64,000 nt of DNA from Pseudomonas sp. G2-4 (lineage in GTDB: Bacteria > Pseudomonadota > Gammaproteobacteria > Pseudomonadales > Pseudomonadaceae), in contig NZ_CP125957.1 of the NCBI RefSeq assembly GCF_030064125.1, forward strand, positions 1,240,001-1,304,000, in the 5' to 3' direction. The notes under the pieces are model-generated. The model was not told the DNA's origin. It worked only from the letters and a program-made list of their open reading frames with translations, and made no database searches. The first letter of the stretch is position 1; the number at the start of each line of letters is the position of its first letter. This document shows positions 11,662-59,084 of the stretch, in pieces. A program made the translations under genes and the position numbers.

Positions 11662-12087
11662 CGGTTGGGGTCAGAGCGGAAGGTATGTTTTTACAATCCT
11701 TCCCCTCATAAAAAGCAAAGCCGCCCGAAGGCGGCTTCAATCGACGCGCAGTTGAGCTTGCTTCGCCCTTTCTGCGCCGCTGGGTCAACCCCGAGAGGGA
11801 CCCAGACTCCTGCCAGCTTCGCTGGTGACGGGGGCGATCATGGCTACTGGTATTAGCGAATTCAAGCCAGCTTGCACGCTCTAAACAGCGTTGCCTGGGA
11901 TGTGTCGACGTACTAAGTCAACGAAATCAATGGTTTCGCTTATCGCAGTACGTTTTATTTCTTTTCTTGTCTGAGCAAGCGATTGTGGTCTGTCAGACGC
12001 ACCGAAGTTTCCGACAAGTTTTTAAGGTTGTCCGTCGGAAGCGAGGGCTCTAGCCTTTGGGTGTCGCTGCCAATTCAGCGACCGGAC
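11662..12087. other. Gene-free stretch after the antiporter
   Basis: No convincing coding frame is seen. It contains a minus-strand terminator (11710-11737), a hairpin TTCCGAC (12009-12015) with GTCGGAA (12034-12040), and a hairpin TCGCTG (12064-12069) with CAGCGA (12076-12081) that leads into the structured leader below. A short minus-strand frame (MIAPVTSEAGRSLG...) near 11790-11840 could be a gene remnant but is too short to claim. Confidence 0.5.
11710..11737 (-). terminator. Intrinsic terminator, minus strand, without a visible parent gene
   Basis: Read on the minus strand: AAGCCGCC-TTCG-GGCGGCTT, a perfect hairpin with a UUCG loop, followed by TTTGCTTTTT. On the plus strand no T-run follows, so it is not the antiporter terminator. 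There is no minus-strand gene upstream of it (to the right) before 12663. Confidence 0.65.
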
Positions 12088-12295
12088 GTGAGAATCCGAT
12101 TTCCCCTAGTAGGCGCGTAGGCGCCGACCATATAAAGTGCAGGCGCTTTTCGTCTGGGCATTGTGTTATGGCGGCTGTGCGCGGGCATGCTTCGGCATGG
12201 CCGGGCTTCTAGGGACTCGGATTCTCACCCCGCGTACGGCTGCCACCCTCCAGTCCGTGAGAAGACTCGGTGGCGGCTTCTAATTCCCCTAGGAG
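12088..12295 (+). ncRNA. C4-antisense-like structured leader, copy 1
   Basis: Elements in order: upstream target (GTGAGAATCCGA 12088-12099 and CCCTAG 12104-12109); hairpin H1, CATGC-UUCG-GCATG capped as C(UUCG)G (about 12183-12202); antisense core CTAGGG...TTCTCAC (12209-12228); stem GCTGCCACC (12240-12248) with GGTGGCGGC (12270-12278), whose loop holds GTGAGAA (12257-12263); and CCCTAGGAG (12287-12295), which contains the Shine-Dalgarno of the next gene. The core pairs with the upstream target (12 + 6 bp) or with the two downstream segments (7 + 6 bp). The second copy at 58699-58888 has the same plan with different pairing sequences. Similarity to P1/P7 C4 RNA is my inference. Confidence 0.7.
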
Positions 12296-12302
12296 CAATG
12301 AC

Positions 12303-12662
12303 ATGATCAAAGAGACACCGAATCCTCCAAAGCCAGCCTCCACGTTCCCCTACGGCGACTACGCCCCCGAAAAGCTGCAAGAAGCCGCTGATCGTGCGCT
12401 GGATCATTACCTCAAGCCTGACGACAGCGAGTCAGACCCCAGGCCCTCGATACAGTTGTTCACCGTGTCGGACAGCGTTGATACCGAAGCCCTGCTAGCC
12501 AACCTCAGCGAAACCCTGGCTTCGGCCAATGCGATGCTCAGCGACCTGGCCTTCGACCTGGACGGCTCGCGACGGCATGTAGCATTGGGCGTGGCGCAGA
12601 TGATCGAGTTGGGGGAGTTGCTGGCGAACAAGTGCCTGGACCGGGCAGAGCTTCGGGTTTGA
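12303..12662 (+). CDS. Small Pseudomonas protein, DUF6124 type (copy 1)
   Basis: Soluble, probably helical protein of 119 residues with no signal or membrane segment. It shares the family pattern with the product at 58341-58694: an N-terminal (K)-TPNPP motif, a EAADRALDHYLKP helix, a variable acidic linker, then VDTEALLANLSETLASANAM.SDLAFDL.GSRRHVALGVAQMIELGELLAN. Function unknown. ATG at 12303 with AGGAG 7 bases before. The leader suggests antisense control of translation. The DUF number is recalled from memory. Confidence 0.82.
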   Translation: MIKETPNPPKPASTFPYGDYAPEKLQEAADRALDHYLKPDDSESDPRPSIQLFTVSDSVDTEALLANLSETLASANAMLSDLAFDLDGSRRHVALGVAQMIELGELLANKCLDRAELRV

Positions 12663-12888: not shown

Positions 12889-13191
12889 TTATGCGTGAGC
12901 CTCTTCCTGCTCAGGAACCAGCCGCACTTCCACTCTCTGACCCAGCGCACGCGCTGCGCTGGCAAGTGTTGCCAGCGTCATTCCTGCATCATTCTGATCC
13001 AGTGCACGATCAACAGCAGTGCGACTGGTGTGCATCCGTTGTGCCAAGGCCTTTTTGGTCACTTTCTGAAGCTTCATGGCTTCGGCAATCTGCCAGGCAA
13101 TAACGCGTTTGAGCGCAGCGGCGGAAACTTCTTCGGCGATGCCTTGCTCGGCGAGAAAGTCGTCAAAATCAGAGCCAATGTGCTTGTTCAT
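12889..13191 (-). CDS. HigA-like antitoxin (XRE-type helix-turn-helix)
   Basis: Protein of 100 residues with an N-terminal dimerising segment (MNKHIGSDFDDFLAEQGI) and a helix-turn-helix around residues 50-70 (VTKKALAQRMHTSRTAVDRAL), then a LATLASAARALG helix. ATG at 13191 preceded by GAGG; the frame extends further upstream but overlaps the toxin gene. It starts 10 bases after the toxin stop, toxin first, as in higBA. It should neutralise the upstream RelE-like toxin and repress the promoter. Confidence 0.85.
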   Translation of the reverse strand: MNKHIGSDFDDFLAEQGIAEEVSAAALKRVIAWQIAEAMKLQKVTKKALAQRMHTSRTAVDRALDQNDAGMTLATLASAARALGQRVEVRLVPEQEEAHA

Positions 13192-13201
13192 TTGCGGTAC
13201 C

Positions 13202-13543
13202 TCATAATCTTGCTTTGCGCTGCTTGGCGGTTGCCATGTCGGTGGCTGGCGTTTTTTGACTTTTTTTGATGAAACCGTGGAGCAGCACCATGTCGGAGCC
13301 CACCACAGTGAAGAGAACGCGGGCAATGGTATCTCCAAGGTCAATCCTGACCTCCCATAGCCCAGTGTCCAGTTTGCGAACCACCGGCATACCTATTGGC
13401 CAACCAATCTGAACAGTCTTGATGTCGGTCCCGATCATCCGTCTGTGCTCGCGAGGCAGGTCAGTCAACCATTCGCGAACGGGTTCATTTCCAGCGTCTG
13501 TGCGGAAGAAACGTACGTTCAGTATGGGGGCAATATCAACCAT
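13202..13543 (-). CDS. HigB/RelE-like toxin (phage Gp49 family)
   Basis: Protein of 113 residues resembling the phage-derived Gp49-like/HigB branch of the RelE superfamily, which act as ribosome-dependent or free mRNA interferases. Visible features: NEPVREWLTDLPREHR, KTVQIGWPIGMPVVRKLDTGLWEVRIDLGD, RVLFTVVGSDMVLLHGFIKKSQKTP and a basic C-terminus. Start taken at the ATG at 13543; one further in-frame ATG at 13570 is possible. It forms a two-gene module with the antitoxin at 12889-13191. Confidence 0.85.
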   Translation of the reverse strand: MVDIAPILNVRFFRTDAGNEPVREWLTDLPREHRRMIGTDIKTVQIGWPIGMPVVRKLDTGLWEVRIDLGDTIARVLFTVVGSDMVLLHGFIKKSQKTPATDMATAKQRKARL

Positions 13544-13636
13544 GAATGAAGTGTACCGAAATAGGTGCATTGCGCAACCTAGGCATCACTGAGTATTTGT
13601 ACAGGGGGAGGTGGTGGCCGGTATGGATGTTGCTGT

Positions 13637-18876: not shown

Positions 18877-19024
18877 TATAAAATGCGCCGCTTTCCGGGG
18901 ATGACCCCGCAAGCTTAAATCCACACACGTGTCGACACGATGACCTGGGTGCCTCGGCTTATATAAGCCGCTGGTTGGTCATTGGGATACGTGGAGGCCA
19001 AACCCGACTTATCAAGGAACTATC
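18877..19024 (+). promoter_or_regulatory. rpsB promoter -10 and structured S2-type leader
   Basis: TATAAA (18877-18882) is followed by a GC-rich discriminator (ATGCGCCGC), as at stringently controlled promoters; the -35 is weak (TTCCGT-like). The leader folds into ATGACC (18940-18945) with GGTCAT (18977-18982), enclosing CGGCTT-ATAT-AAGCCG (18955-18970). Autogenous control of rpsB by S2 through a conserved leader is established in gammaproteobacteria; this element fits that position and shape. Confidence 0.65.
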
Positions 19025-47714: not shown

Positions 47715-48560
47715 ATGAGCCTTGAAAACATTTCCTGCCAGAAAAGCTTCGGCGGCTGGCACAAGCGTTACCGGCACCGTTCCGAAGTGCTCGGTTGTGA
47801 CATGGTGTTTGCCGTGTACCTGCCGCCGCAAGCCGAGCAGGGCGGCAAATTGCCTGTCCTGTACTGGTTGTCCGGACTGACCTGTACCGATGAAAACTTC
47901 ATGCAGAAGGCCGGTGCCCAGCGCATGGCCGCCGAGTTGGGGTTGATCATTGTCGCGCCCGACACCAGTCCGCGCGGCGCCGACGTACCGGGCGATCCGG
48001 ACGGTGCCTGGGACTTTGGCCTGGGCGCAGGCTTTTACCTGAACGCCACGCAGGATCCGTGGGCGCGGCACTATCGGATGCATGACTACGTCGTGCAGGA
48101 ATTGCCGGAGCTGGTTGAAGCGCATTTTCCGGCCTCGGATAAACGCGGTGTCAGTGGTCATTCCATGGGCGGACATGGTGCATTGGTCTGCGCCTTGCGC
48201 AACCCGGGGCGTTATCGTTCGGTGTCGGCTTTTTCACCGATCAACAATCCGATGGATTGCCCATGGGGCCAGAAGGCCTTCTCTCGCTACCTGGGGGAAG
48301 ATCGTTCGAAATGGCGCGAGTGGGATGCCTGCGCACTGATCGCCGAAGCTGGCGAGAAGTTGCCACTGCTGGTGGATCAGGGCGATCGCGATGACTTCCT
48401 GGCCAACCAGCTCAAGCCTGAAGCCCTGCGCCAAGCCGCCAAGTCCGCCGGTCATCCGCTGGAGTTGCGCCTGCAACCGGGCTACGACCACAGCTACTTC
48501 TTCATTGCCAGCTTTATCGATGATCACTTGCAGCATCATGCACGCGCTCTAAACGTCTAA
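47715..48560 (+). CDS. fghA: S-formylglutathione hydrolase
   Basis: Serine hydrolase (esterase D family), 281 residues, releasing formate and glutathione. Nucleophile in [13 protein letters not shown], oxyanion region [15 protein letters not shown], Asp in VDQGDRDDF and His in GYDHSYFFI. Second step after frmA. Confidence 0.96.
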
Positions 48561-53854: not shown

Positions 53855-54026
53855 GTTGCGTAAGCGTTCGGATTCCCGTGCACGGGATAGACGACTATAA
53901 AAGTTGTCGTATCTCTTTAACTTTCTGATTTATAAGGTGATTTTATTTGTGGCTGTATCATGACAGAGACAGTCGACGGTATCCGGGGAATTGCACTCGG
54001 CGGGTAAAACACTAATATCAGTCCTG

Positions 54027-54160
54027 TGTCGACGGACAGACACACCCGTCACGGACGATGGGGAAGGAAGGAGATCGCAGGACGCGATTCATCAGGACGA
54101 TGAAAAGGATCAAAGGGATTAGGGAAAAAATGTGGGCGGGTCAAACCGCCCCTTTTTTTT
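54027..54160 (+). ncRNA. rsmZ: Small regulatory RNA RsmZ
   Basis: Non-coding RNA that sequesters the CsrA-type proteins RsmA/RsmE under GacS/GacA control. It lies in the rpoS-fdxA gap, the known rsmZ position. At least eight GGA motifs occur (54034, 54053, 54066, 54070, 54080, 54095, 54107, 54116), several in hairpin loops such as TCGCAGGACGCGA and TCATCAGGACGATGA. A -10 TAATAT (54013-54018) precedes the TGTCGACGG 5' end, and a terminator (GGGCGG-GTCAAA-CCGCCC plus T8) ends it at 54160. Length about 134 nt, near the 127 nt I recall for RsmZ. Confidence 0.88.
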
Positions 54161-57276: not shown

Positions 57277-57708
57277 CGGTGTCAGGGAAGCTCGTTGAAA
57301 GGTGTAGGGCAAAAGGAGGGGCATTGGCCCGGCTTTTCCGCGATGGGCGCAAGGTTAACATGGGTGGTCTGGTGGGACCCAGCGTTTGGGATTGTGTGCA
57401 TATCCGTTGCTGCGGTAACGGCTACTTATGGTTCCGCCCTTACGGCGGCTCACTTTCGAAGAGCGCGAAAGTAAGCAAAGCGCTTTTGCCCCACCACTCG
57501 GTGCCTCGCCTAGGCTCGGCATGCCTGAACGAAGGCATCGCTCCGTGGGCCGCCGCGAAGGGCCATCCATGGCCCAGCGCGGCTAACCCGGCATCCATGC
57601 CGGTTTGCCCACTGCGCAATACCTTCGTTCAGCCAGCGTGGTTAATGGGGCGCCGAGATCAACGTCCACCGCGAGGCGGCCTGATTCTTGGTGGGACCGC
57701 GTTCCTCC
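57277..57708. other. Gene-free stretch upstream of mutS
   Basis: No coding frame with family features. It holds several GC-rich inverted repeats: CCGCCCTTACGGCGG (57436-57450), CTTTCG..CGAAAG near 57462, GCCATCCATGGC (about 57563) and GGCATCCATGCCGG. It reads as a structured intergenic element of the kind repeated in Pseudomonas genomes, but I cannot show copies within this window. Confidence 0.4.
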
Positions 57709-58205
57709 TGTGGGAGCGAGCCTGCTCGCGAAGGCGGCCTGATAGCCGACCTGTTTCTCCGGCTATACCCCGATCCAACTGTGGGAGCGAGCCTGCTCGC
57801 GAAGGCGGCCTGACAGCCGGCCTGTTTCTCCGGCTGTACCCCGATCCAACTGTGGGAGCGAGCCTGCTCGCGAAGGCGGCCTGACAGCCGGCCTGTTTCT
57901 CCGGCTGTACCCCGATCCAACTGTGGGAGCGAGCCTGCTCGCGAAGGCGGCCTGACAGCCGGCCTATCTCTGCGGCTGTGCCCCGATCCAATTGTGGGAG
58001 CGAGCCTGCTCGCGAAGGCGGCCTGACAGCCGGCCTGTTTCTCCGGCTGTACCCCGATCCAACTGTGGGAGCGAGCCTGCTCGCGAAGGCGGCCTGACAG
58101 CCGGCCTATCTCTGCGGCTGTGCCCCGATCCAATTGTGGGAGCGAGCCTGCTCGCGAAGGCGGCCTGATAGCCGGCCTGTTTCTCCGGCTGTATCCCGAT
58201 CCAAC
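57709..58205 (+). repeat. Seven tandem copies of a 71-bp REP-containing unit
   Basis: Units begin at 57709, 57780, 57851, 57922, 57993, 58064 and 58135, exactly 71 bases apart. Each has TGTGGGAGCGAGCCTGCTCG, then CGAAGGCGGCCTG, then an inverted repeat ACAGCCGG...CCGGCTGT and CCCCGATCCAAC. Units 4 and 6 share a variant (CCTATCTCTGCGGCTGTG), giving an order A-A-A-B-A-B-A. All reading frames stay open by chance because 71 is not a multiple of 3 and lacks stops; it is not coding. Confidence 0.95.
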
Positions 58206-58294
58206 TGTGGGAGCGAGCTTGCTCGCGATGACGGCTGCCAATACAACTTAGTTGTAACTGGACTACCGCTATCGCGAGCAAGCTCGCTCCCACA
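58206..58294. repeat. REPIN, REP family A, closing the tandem array
   Basis: An ordinary doublet whose left arm is in phase with the 71-bp array (start 58206). The CTTGCTC centre and inner flank differ from the tandem units. Confidence 0.9.
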
Positions 58295-58340: not shown

Positions 58341-58694
58341 CTACCTCACTTCAACCACATCCAACGCCCGATTCGCCAGCAACTGCCCCAACTCAATCAT
58401 CTGCTGGACCCCCAACGCGATATGCCGTCGCGAGCCCTCCAGGTCGAATGCCAGATCACTGACCATCGCATTGGCCGAGGCCAGGGTTTCGCTGAGGTTG
58501 GCGAGCAGGCATTCGGCGTCGATGTTGGGGGCGATGATGAAAAGGGTATCGAGTGTGTCGGATGTTTCTTTGTCGGCTTTCGGTTTGAGGTAATAGTCCA
58601 GGGCGCGGGTAGCGGCTTCGTCGAGTTTTTTGGCGTTGGCAGACTGGCTGCGGGAGACGTGATCGTCTGGGGGATTCGGAGTGTTCTTGAACAT
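58341..58694 (-). CDS. Small Pseudomonas protein, DUF6124 type (copy 2)
   Basis: Paralogue of the 12303-12662 product, 117 residues: KNTPNPPDDH, LDEAATRALDYYLKPK, a short linker, then NIDAECLLANLSETLASANAMVSDLAFDLEGSRRHIALGVQQMIELGQLLANRALD. No signal or membrane segment, function unknown. ATG at 58694 preceded by a modest AAGAAG. The leader RNA upstream has the same architecture as at copy 1. Confidence 0.82.
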   Translation of the reverse strand: MFKNTPNPPDDHVSRSQSANAKKLDEAATRALDYYLKPKADKETSDTLDTLFIIAPNIDAECLLANLSETLASANAMVSDLAFDLEGSRRHIALGVQQMIELGQLLANRALDVVEVR

Positions 58695-58698
58695 GCTT

Positions 58699-58888
58699 CT
58701 TAGATCCTTGAGTTGGAGCCGCCACCGATTCGCTACTAAACGAAGAGGGTGGCAGCTGTACGCAGGTTAGTAGACCGGGGATCCAAGAAACCGGCGCACC
58801 CGAAGGCGCCCTGCGCACAGCCACCATTGAGTGCAGGAGTACCTGACTGAATGGAGCAATGAACATCTTGGATATCGAGCTACTAAAC
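58699..58888 (-). ncRNA. C4-antisense-like structured leader, copy 2
   Basis: Minus-strand order: upstream target GTTTAGTAG...ATCCAAG (58888-58867); hairpin H1 GGCGCC-TTCG-GGTGCGCC capped C(UUCG)G (58811-58793); antisense core CTTGGATCC...CTACTAAC (58787-58766); stem GCTGCCACC with GGTGGCGGC, its loop holding GTTTAGTAG (58741-58733); and GGATCTAAG (58707-58699), immediately before the start site. The core pairs with either flank, one G-U in the downstream pairing. H1 keeps its shape, including a G-G mismatch after five pairs, although its stem differs from copy 1. Confidence 0.7.
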
Positions 58889-59084
58889 CCGATCACTGAT
58901 GGGCAGTGACAAGAACCAAAGTACCGATGGGATCCAAGGTGGACAAGCCGGCGGATTCTGGCGTAGTCGTAGGCAGAGGCGCAAGGCGATGTAGCCTGGT
59001 GTCGCACATTTGAAGGACGCGGATCGAGGGATTTCCCAAGAGGTTGTAGGGGAAATTTCCCAATTCAAGGATTGGATTGAACCC

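Follow-up and report, generated by a model that had tools for sequence, protein, structure and literature searches.

At positions 58341-58694 of a 64,000-nt stretch of the Pseudomonas sp. G2-4 genome (the window), a gene for a DUF6124 protein is preceded by a leader whose core is complementary to segments on both of its sides, and a second DUF6124 gene in the window (copy 1) has its own such leader. These loci raise the question of what the RNA is, what it controls, and whether each copy recognizes only its own mRNA. The core at 58748-58825 is a C4 antisense RNA, a member of a known family. The reading that we favor, with a probability of about 85%, is that a C4-type antisense switch controls the DUF6124 gene directly behind it, and that the genome carries 32 such RNAs, each mainly silencing its own mRNA. 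The features of the two loci are as follows (the ends of the C4 were placed by analogy with the 77-nt C4 of P1).

58941-58946, minus strand: -35-like hexamer TTGTCC, 17 nt from the -10-like hexamer; putative promoter element
58918-58923, minus strand: -10-like hexamer TACTTT, some 30 nt upstream of a1, a spacing like that of P1; putative promoter element
58892-58910, minus strand: 5' hairpin of the a1b1 element, GTCACTGCCCATCAGTGAT (computed fold)
58880-58888, minus strand: a1 target GTTTAGTAG, within a hairpin, complementary to a'; counterpart of P1 a1
58866-58873, minus strand: b1 target ATCCAAGA, exact complement to 8 nt of b'
58748-58825, minus strand: C4 antisense RNA, predicted mature length 78 nt (Rfam match 58745-58831)
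58796-58809, minus strand: P2 hairpin with UUCG loop (computed fold and consensus alignment)
58779-58790, minus strand: b', the P3 loop TTTCTTGGATCC, partner of b1 and b2
58766-58773, minus strand: a' element CTACTAAC, partner of a1 and a2
58748-58756, minus strand: C4 3' strand GCTGCCACC, which can pair with the C4 5' strand or with 58726-58718
58733-58741, minus strand: a2 target GTTTAGTAG, within a hairpin, complementary to a' (computed fold)
58718-58726, minus strand: GGTGGCGGC, alternative pairing partner for the C4 3' strand
58696-58707, minus strand: b2 target GGATCTAAGAAG, covering the ribosome-binding region of the DUF6124 gene
58341-58694, minus strand: DUF6124 gene, 117 aa, ATG at 58694 (PF19619, E 5.4e-33); the controlled gene in the proposed switch
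12050-12102, plus strand: copy 1, a1b1 element (RF03163, 55.5 bits)
12164-12250, plus strand: copy 1, C4 antisense RNA (RF01695, 68 bits)
12303-12662, plus strand: copy 1, DUF6124 gene (PF19619, E 2.6e-30)

Read along the minus strand from 58910 to 58694, the order is hairpin, a1, b1, C4 core, a2, GGTGGCGGC, b2 and ATG; b' and b2 pair over 12 nt in antiparallel orientation, two of the pairs being G-U. The TTGTCC region coincides with an upstream block common to many copies in the genome (30 copies aligned, two of the 32 left out), and at the -10-like position the aligned upstream regions of other copies have TATCGT, TATAGT or TAGTTT. The locus has mutS on one side and an S24-type repressor on the other; it borders a region that looks prophage-like and includes a phage-type holin. 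Copy 1 is flanked by a Na+/H+ antiporter on one side and a Gp49/HTH pair on the other.

The core scored 82.9 bits with the Rfam model RF01695, whose cut-off is 45 (E 8.6e-15 over the whole window). Its computed fold has three stems at -45.3 kcal/mol (z -4.2; none of 200 shuffled sequences equaled it), and both this fold and the consensus alignment present a' and b' unpaired. Further marks of the family are present, with a2 and b2 downstream (b2 on the ribosome-binding site), the complements a1 and b1 upstream, and GGT at the predicted 5' end, from which the spacing gives 78 nt; the C4 of P1 likewise begins with GGT. The a1b1 element gave a partial match to RF03163 (c4-a1b1, 58875-58910) of 29.7 bits, below the gathering cut-off of 46.7. 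The annotated P1 record places a1 at 48255-48261, b1 at 48269-48276 (a1 and b1 being labeled putative in the record itself), C4 at 48343-48419, a2 at 48423-48429, b2 at 48452-48459 and icd from 48470. Measured from the C4 end (the GCCACC mark, at 58748), a2, b2 and the start codon lie at 7, 41 and 54 nt, as compared with 4, 33 and 51 nt in P1; given this same order and similar spacing, the elements picked out by the initial annotation correspond to a1, b1, a', b', a2 and b2. The likeness to P1 and P7 takes in a three-stem RNA of about 77 nt with a' and b', flanked within one leader by a1/b1 on its 5' side and by a2/b2 on its 3' side, where b2 overlies the ribosome site. The differences lie in the controlled gene, which is icd/ant in the phages and DUF6124 here, between mutS and the S24-type repressor, and in number, with 32 copies of distinct address in one Pseudomonas genome. 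The immI layout of P1/P7, with icd and ant downstream, is absent: the next gene is the PF19619 match, which had no NCBIfam or PHROG match at E 0.1.

The architecture described in the initial annotation is not new: the Rfam match and the P1 layout identify it with the C4 antisense RNA that phages P1 and P7 carry, and a new RNA family is rejected because Rfam assigns the core to C4 above the cut-off. Its description of a second copy with its own pairing sequences was borne out, in that all of the named elements are present on the minus strand and the pairing sequences of copy 1 are unrelated. The summed duplex energy of a' and b' is -22.5 kcal/mol for this copy with itself and -28.9 kcal/mol for copy 1 with itself, compared with -8.7 and -16.6 kcal/mol crosswise. 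A G-G mismatch described for the UUCG hairpin appears only if the hairpin is extended; the computed fold has 5 bp including a G-U wobble, and the two Gs fall in neighboring junction stems of the C4 fold.

From the sequence and by analogy with P1, we infer the following course of transcription, processing, repression and insulation at the DUF6124 loci. One promoter would give a leader containing a1b1, C4 and a2b2, followed by the gene. The C4 would fold and be cut free of its precursor at the GGU that begins it; the enzyme is probably RNase P, as in P1/P7. The processed RNA would bind a2 by its a' and b2 by its b'; because b2 covers the ribosome-binding site, hiding it should block translation of DUF6124. 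The C4 of P1 acts in trans, and there the block also lets Rho end transcription early.

The two copies of the initial annotation proved to be part of a much larger set. The 6.65 Mb genome has 32 C4 matches, every one above the cut-off, and 30 DUF6124 matches. The majority of the C4 modules (23 of 32) directly precede a gene of DUF6124, a family of unknown function; one such gene, following the C4 at 5189875, appears to carry a frameshift, and seven of the 30 DUF6124 matches are without a C4. Short reading frames follow six C4s (the four of these that were scanned with Pfam matched no family), and three C4s have no clear gene. In a genus sample, 110 of 119 genomes had a C4 match (E <= 0.001), 109 of them above the cut-off, with counts per genome from zero to at least 33; sixteen genomes chosen for high counts (15 with at least 33 matches in the genus sample, one with 31) held 32 to 55 matches at E <= 0.001. 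A second Pseudomonas genome, G005, had 42 matches, 39 of them above the cut-off. C4 was present in 62 of 398 genomes across a phylum sample, and DUF6124 in 17 of 198 genomes of the family (two of 19 genera). Among named loci of close DUF6124 relatives, all of them in Pseudomonas, 60 of 66 have a C4 just upstream (one of these C4s is weak). Behind some of the phylum-sample C4s stands an Icd-like, HTH_35, BRO-N or DUF3077 gene, and others matched nothing; the HTH_35 genes we take to be Ner-like. The Icd-like, Ner-like and BRO-type genes of other Proteobacteria resemble the Pseudomonas loci in having a C4 directly before the gene, with a1 and a2 matched in 20 of 27 loci, but the products there are of phage type, whereas in Pseudomonas the place is often taken by DUF6124 or DUF3077.

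Several C4s occur in clusters of two or three within a few kb (1103888-1110735 and 5724681-5725850 in this genome, 3628832-3630617 in G005), and two C4s of the G005 cluster have an identical b'. G005 also has a locus (L160, 2521054-2521140) in which a C4 precedes a 175-aa frame that by eye resembles a BRO-type antirepressor, in a phage-like arrangement; the same genome has many DUF6124-like modules.

We estimated how private these pairings are from duplex energies of the b' loop (13 nt) and of a' (9 nt) with the ribosome-site window and the a2 window of each module (ATG starts preferred). Over the 32 modules the mean summed energy was -21.6 kcal/mol for a C4 with its own target and -10.9 kcal/mol with foreign targets, and none of 100,000 random reassignments gave a mean below -14.18. 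Of the 32 C4s, 29 paired best with their own target, and 29 of the 32 targets likewise paired best with their own C4; the exceptions were two C4s that lack a gene (1103888 and 5369766), a third C4, at 14886, and one target, at 4375309. Foreign pairs came within 3 kcal/mol of a target's own C4 in 67 of 992 cases, 55 of them on two geneless targets. When only the 29 gene-bearing modules were considered, the own partner was best for 28 C4s and for all 29 targets, and 11 of 812 foreign pairs came within 3 kcal/mol. Both directions of the near-duplicate pair 14886/6390927 are among these 11, as is the target at 5725764 with the C4 from 1110649. At the 58341-58694 locus the next best foreign C4 was weaker by 4.4 kcal/mol. 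Strong pairing has been lost in two of the three geneless C4s and kept in the third.

These windows were adopted after initial windows of 20 nt, which included GC-rich stem arms, had given a noisy outcome (own downstream target best for b' in nine of 31 loci, 31 of the 32 being covered), and they were fixed before the test on G005. There, 30 of the 42 copies gave mean energies of -20.5 kcal/mol (own) versus -10.6 kcal/mol (foreign), and the own partner was best for 22 of 30 C4s, some of the eight misses (by eye L167, L172 and L180) stemming from shifted fixed-position extraction, and for 24 of 30 targets. The two genomes have a single b' in common (31 distinct in this genome and 29 distinct among the 30 copies of G005). 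Since the stems are common to the modules and a'/b' and a2/b2 differ from locus to locus, each RNA is expected mainly to silence its own mRNA, and we infer from the computed energies that the C4-target pairs are largely insulated. The prediction of the initial annotation that each RNA recognizes only its own mRNA therefore holds as a tendency (29 of 32, 28 of 29 with a gene, 22 of 30 in G005) and is too strong in its strict form: cross-reaction is predicted between the near-duplicates 14886/6390927 and also for the C4 at 1110649 with the target at 5725764.

The pairing elements are retained on both sides of the core across the collected loci. Exact 7-nt complements of a' stand on both sides in 29 of 32 modules of this genome (which alone has 14 distinct a' sequences), 58 of 60 named loci, 25 of 25 viral-contig loci (mostly from one site) and 23 of 30 copies in G005. 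In a diverse set, of which 29 modules were fetched and two were lost in extraction, a 6-nt word of a' matched both a1 and a2 in 20 of 27, the seven misses being counted as such even though some look by eye like extraction shifts.

As a control for relatedness we formed disjoint closest pairs by protein score from the 85 of 92 modules with a downstream frame of at least 80 residues. In 39 closest pairs the two members have different a' sequences; both members of 35 of these pairs retain exact a1 and a2, and none of the 39 has an a' that fits the other member's a2. Where b' differs at four or more of 13 positions, own pairing beats swapped pairing in all 39 contrasts (means of -14.4 and -6.5, respectively, per duplex; Wilcoxon p 5e-8), indicating that core and target vary together beyond relatedness; in several closest pairs the addresses are unrelated despite 97 to 99% identical proteins. 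The initial annotation had read covariation between two loci as a sign of function, and this extends far beyond those two; covariation no higher than relatedness, the outcome that it had named as contrary to its claim, was not what the closest-relative contrasts gave.

Re-addressed and still matching modules also occur at sites with the same flanks (358615 compared with L062 and with L095, the latter matched to the site by one flank, and 3755133 compared with L094). At the mutS site, the tree of the neighboring regulator gene requires at least eight changes of a' type. Leader and gene start there differ jointly between two a' types, and one copy (L127) is a mosaic, so that cassette exchange is a likely route of address change at this site, as judged from these sequences; eight independent compensations are ruled out as an account of the switches, block exchange being likelier. 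Two IMG/VR contigs, L107 (4865-6637) and L127 (4867-5848), each carry a pair of closely spaced C4 leaders in the vicinity of the mutS site; the second leader of L127 combines an a1 of one type with an a' and a2 of another, and precedes a different short reading frame.

The DUF6124 orthologs at the mutS site have a dN/dS of 0.22 (66 of 78 pairs), indicating purifying selection. The predicted structure (pLDDT 75) has three helices with a confident helical hairpin; no PDB entry matched it structurally with E < 0.001, and no solved relative was better than E 1.5. The protein encoded at 58341-58694 gave no PADLOC match at E 1 and no PHROG or NCBIfam match at E 0.1, and that of copy 1 gave one NCBIfam match, far under its cut-off. 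Kinship with DUF3077 was considered and is weak, with a sub-threshold Pfam match (E 0.0021) and an hhalign E of 0.0098 at a probability of 4%, and a link to a family of about 90 aa was not significant. In tblastn searches the protein of 58341-58694 matched one of 50,697 phage records and no plasmid record; 24 of the 25 IMG/VR loci with relatives have the chromosomal regulator flank of the same mutS site.

The prophage-like region (S24 repressor, phage-type holin) that the locus at 58341-58694 borders, the origin of C4 as a phage immunity RNA, the three geneless C4s and the apparent frameshift behind 5189875 could all be taken to mean that the modules are inactive relics of immunity regions, with pairing kept only through common descent. 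We consider this very improbable, because pairing has been renewed by co-change in 39 of 39 b' contrasts, only one b' is common to this genome and G005, re-addressed leaders at orthologous sites still match, DUF6124 has a dN/dS of 0.22, and just one of the three geneless C4s has not lost strong pairing. A live phage role is conceivable as well: the C4s may chiefly guard against incoming phages with matching a2/b2, the downstream gene being secondary. P1/P7 C4 confers immunity, the fast turnover of addresses between this genome and G005 would suit an arms race, and PMC5320573 raises such a role for the C4 sets of Acinetobacter. Nearly every C4, however, matches its own resident gene; tblastn matched only one of 50,697 phage records, and 24 of 25 IMG/VR loci have the chromosomal regulator flank. 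We regard this role as distinctly unlikely.

The remaining alternative dispenses with a free RNA. The initial annotation had described a stem between GCTGCCACC and GGTGGCGGC; this stem can form, making a hairpin that contains a2 (-16.8 kcal/mol over 39 nt), but it competes with the C4's own stem for the same 3' strand. A leader might therefore flip between the C4 fold, with the ribosome site free, and one that joins b' to b2 and the C4 3' strand to GGTGGCGGC, and insulation would follow from pairing inside one molecule. Because a2/b2 and C4 share one transcript, such a fold could use the same pairing. The whole-leader minimum fold of the 58694-58910 locus is indeed of the alternative kind, with the extra stem and b'/b2 paired in cis, 8 kcal/mol below the C4 fold; 18 of the 32 leaders have some alternative fold that is better than the C4 fold by over 3 kcal/mol, and a like stem is possible in P1 (with one mismatch) and in distant loci. 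Own partners form the extra stem better than foreign ones (z 4.5 for the 32 loci of this genome, z 6.6 for 27 diverse loci, and a weak z 2.6 for 60 named loci, where some shuffles attain the observed mean), all three z values being inflated by relatedness. In none of the other 31 leaders, however, does the minimum fold contain contacts of b' or a' with the downstream part; the gain over the C4 fold is -5.7 kcal/mol with the own downstream half and -5.0 kcal/mol with that of another locus; P1 shows no gain, its minimum fold being the C4 fold; the characterized relative, P1 C4, acts in trans (as stated in the relevant part of PMC5320573); and a cis switch has no need of conserved a1/b1. With the gain nearly equal for swapped halves and the b'/b2 contact seen at one locus only, the computed folds indicate that the stem is a shared rather than private feature. 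The swap control likewise led us to reject the idea of bistable leaders, having given nearly the own-leader gain, and we judge a cis switch to be unlikely.

Taken as an antisense switch acting mainly on its own mRNA, the Pseudomonas set can be compared with other systems. C4 antisense RNA and c4-a1b1 are listed for Proteobacteria and phages in the relevant entries of Weinberg et al. 2010 (PMC2864571), whose predictions included Pseudomonadales according to a passage in PMC5320573, and C4 appears in lists for Burkholderia cenocepacia (in part of PMC4603805) and Xylella (in part of PMC12189769). The C4 section of PMC5320573 attributes the separate specificities of P1 and P7 to a 4-nt difference and describes multi-copy C4-like sRNAs in Acinetobacter baumannii ('Group 1'), with an RNA-seq pattern of processing from longer transcripts. 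That set, known here from the paper's description, is alike in having many C4-type RNAs within one bacterial genome; the variability reported there is in a', and bacterial mRNA targets were proposed, whereas the Pseudomonas copies, unlike the set as described in that section, mostly have their own matched a2/b2 and a gene directly behind. Open-licence papers, covered mostly at the level of listings, yielded no report of a link between C4 and DUF6124 or of a private C4 set in Pseudomonas, and no paper on DUF6124 was found among them. The antisense geometry would also fit a type I toxin-antitoxin system, but there the silenced product is a small toxic, usually membrane-active peptide, in contrast to the 117-aa, predicted helical DUF6124 protein.

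Judged by sequence, a known RNA family here occupies a new setting, as a large set of functional-looking modules whose addresses are mostly private. If the pairs are as private as predicted, about thirty insulated sRNA-mRNA pairs on one scaffold share one cell, and the avoidance of cross-talk among paralogous antisense switches becomes directly testable. DUF6124, with 30 matches in this genome, gains a regulatory context, and C4 sets show how fast antisense addresses can change even though the controlled protein hardly does. A wider conjecture, doubtful when taken with all of its details, is that C4-rich Pseudomonas have made a phage immunity RNA into a self-insulating switchboard of 30 to 55 C4s per genome, most silencing a DUF6124 or DUF3077 protein. 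Addresses would be rewritten far faster than the protein, by cassette exchange or through selection against cross-talk, DUF6124 and DUF3077 would be near-interchangeable small proteins, and single modules could be released, for example by incoming a1b1-like decoys.

Other features of the window lie close to the two loci. Immediately downstream of the DUF6124 gene at 58341-58694 are 7.4 tandem copies of a 71-base unit (57708-58235, 93% matches), an array that we presume to be REP-like, and near the mutS start there is a match to the Rfam TwoAYGGAY RNA (57519-57638, minus strand; 52.4 bits, cut-off 43). Beside copy 1 lies a Gp49-like (PF05973) and HTH_37-like gene pair (12892-13570, minus strand; HTH_37 at 25.3 bits, below the Pfam cut-off of 27), which in our view resembles a HigBA-type toxin-antitoxin pair. 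Elsewhere in the window, Rfam matched PrrB/RsmZ at 54025-54159 (plus strand, 124.7 bits) and t44 at 18904-19003 (plus strand, 69.2 bits).
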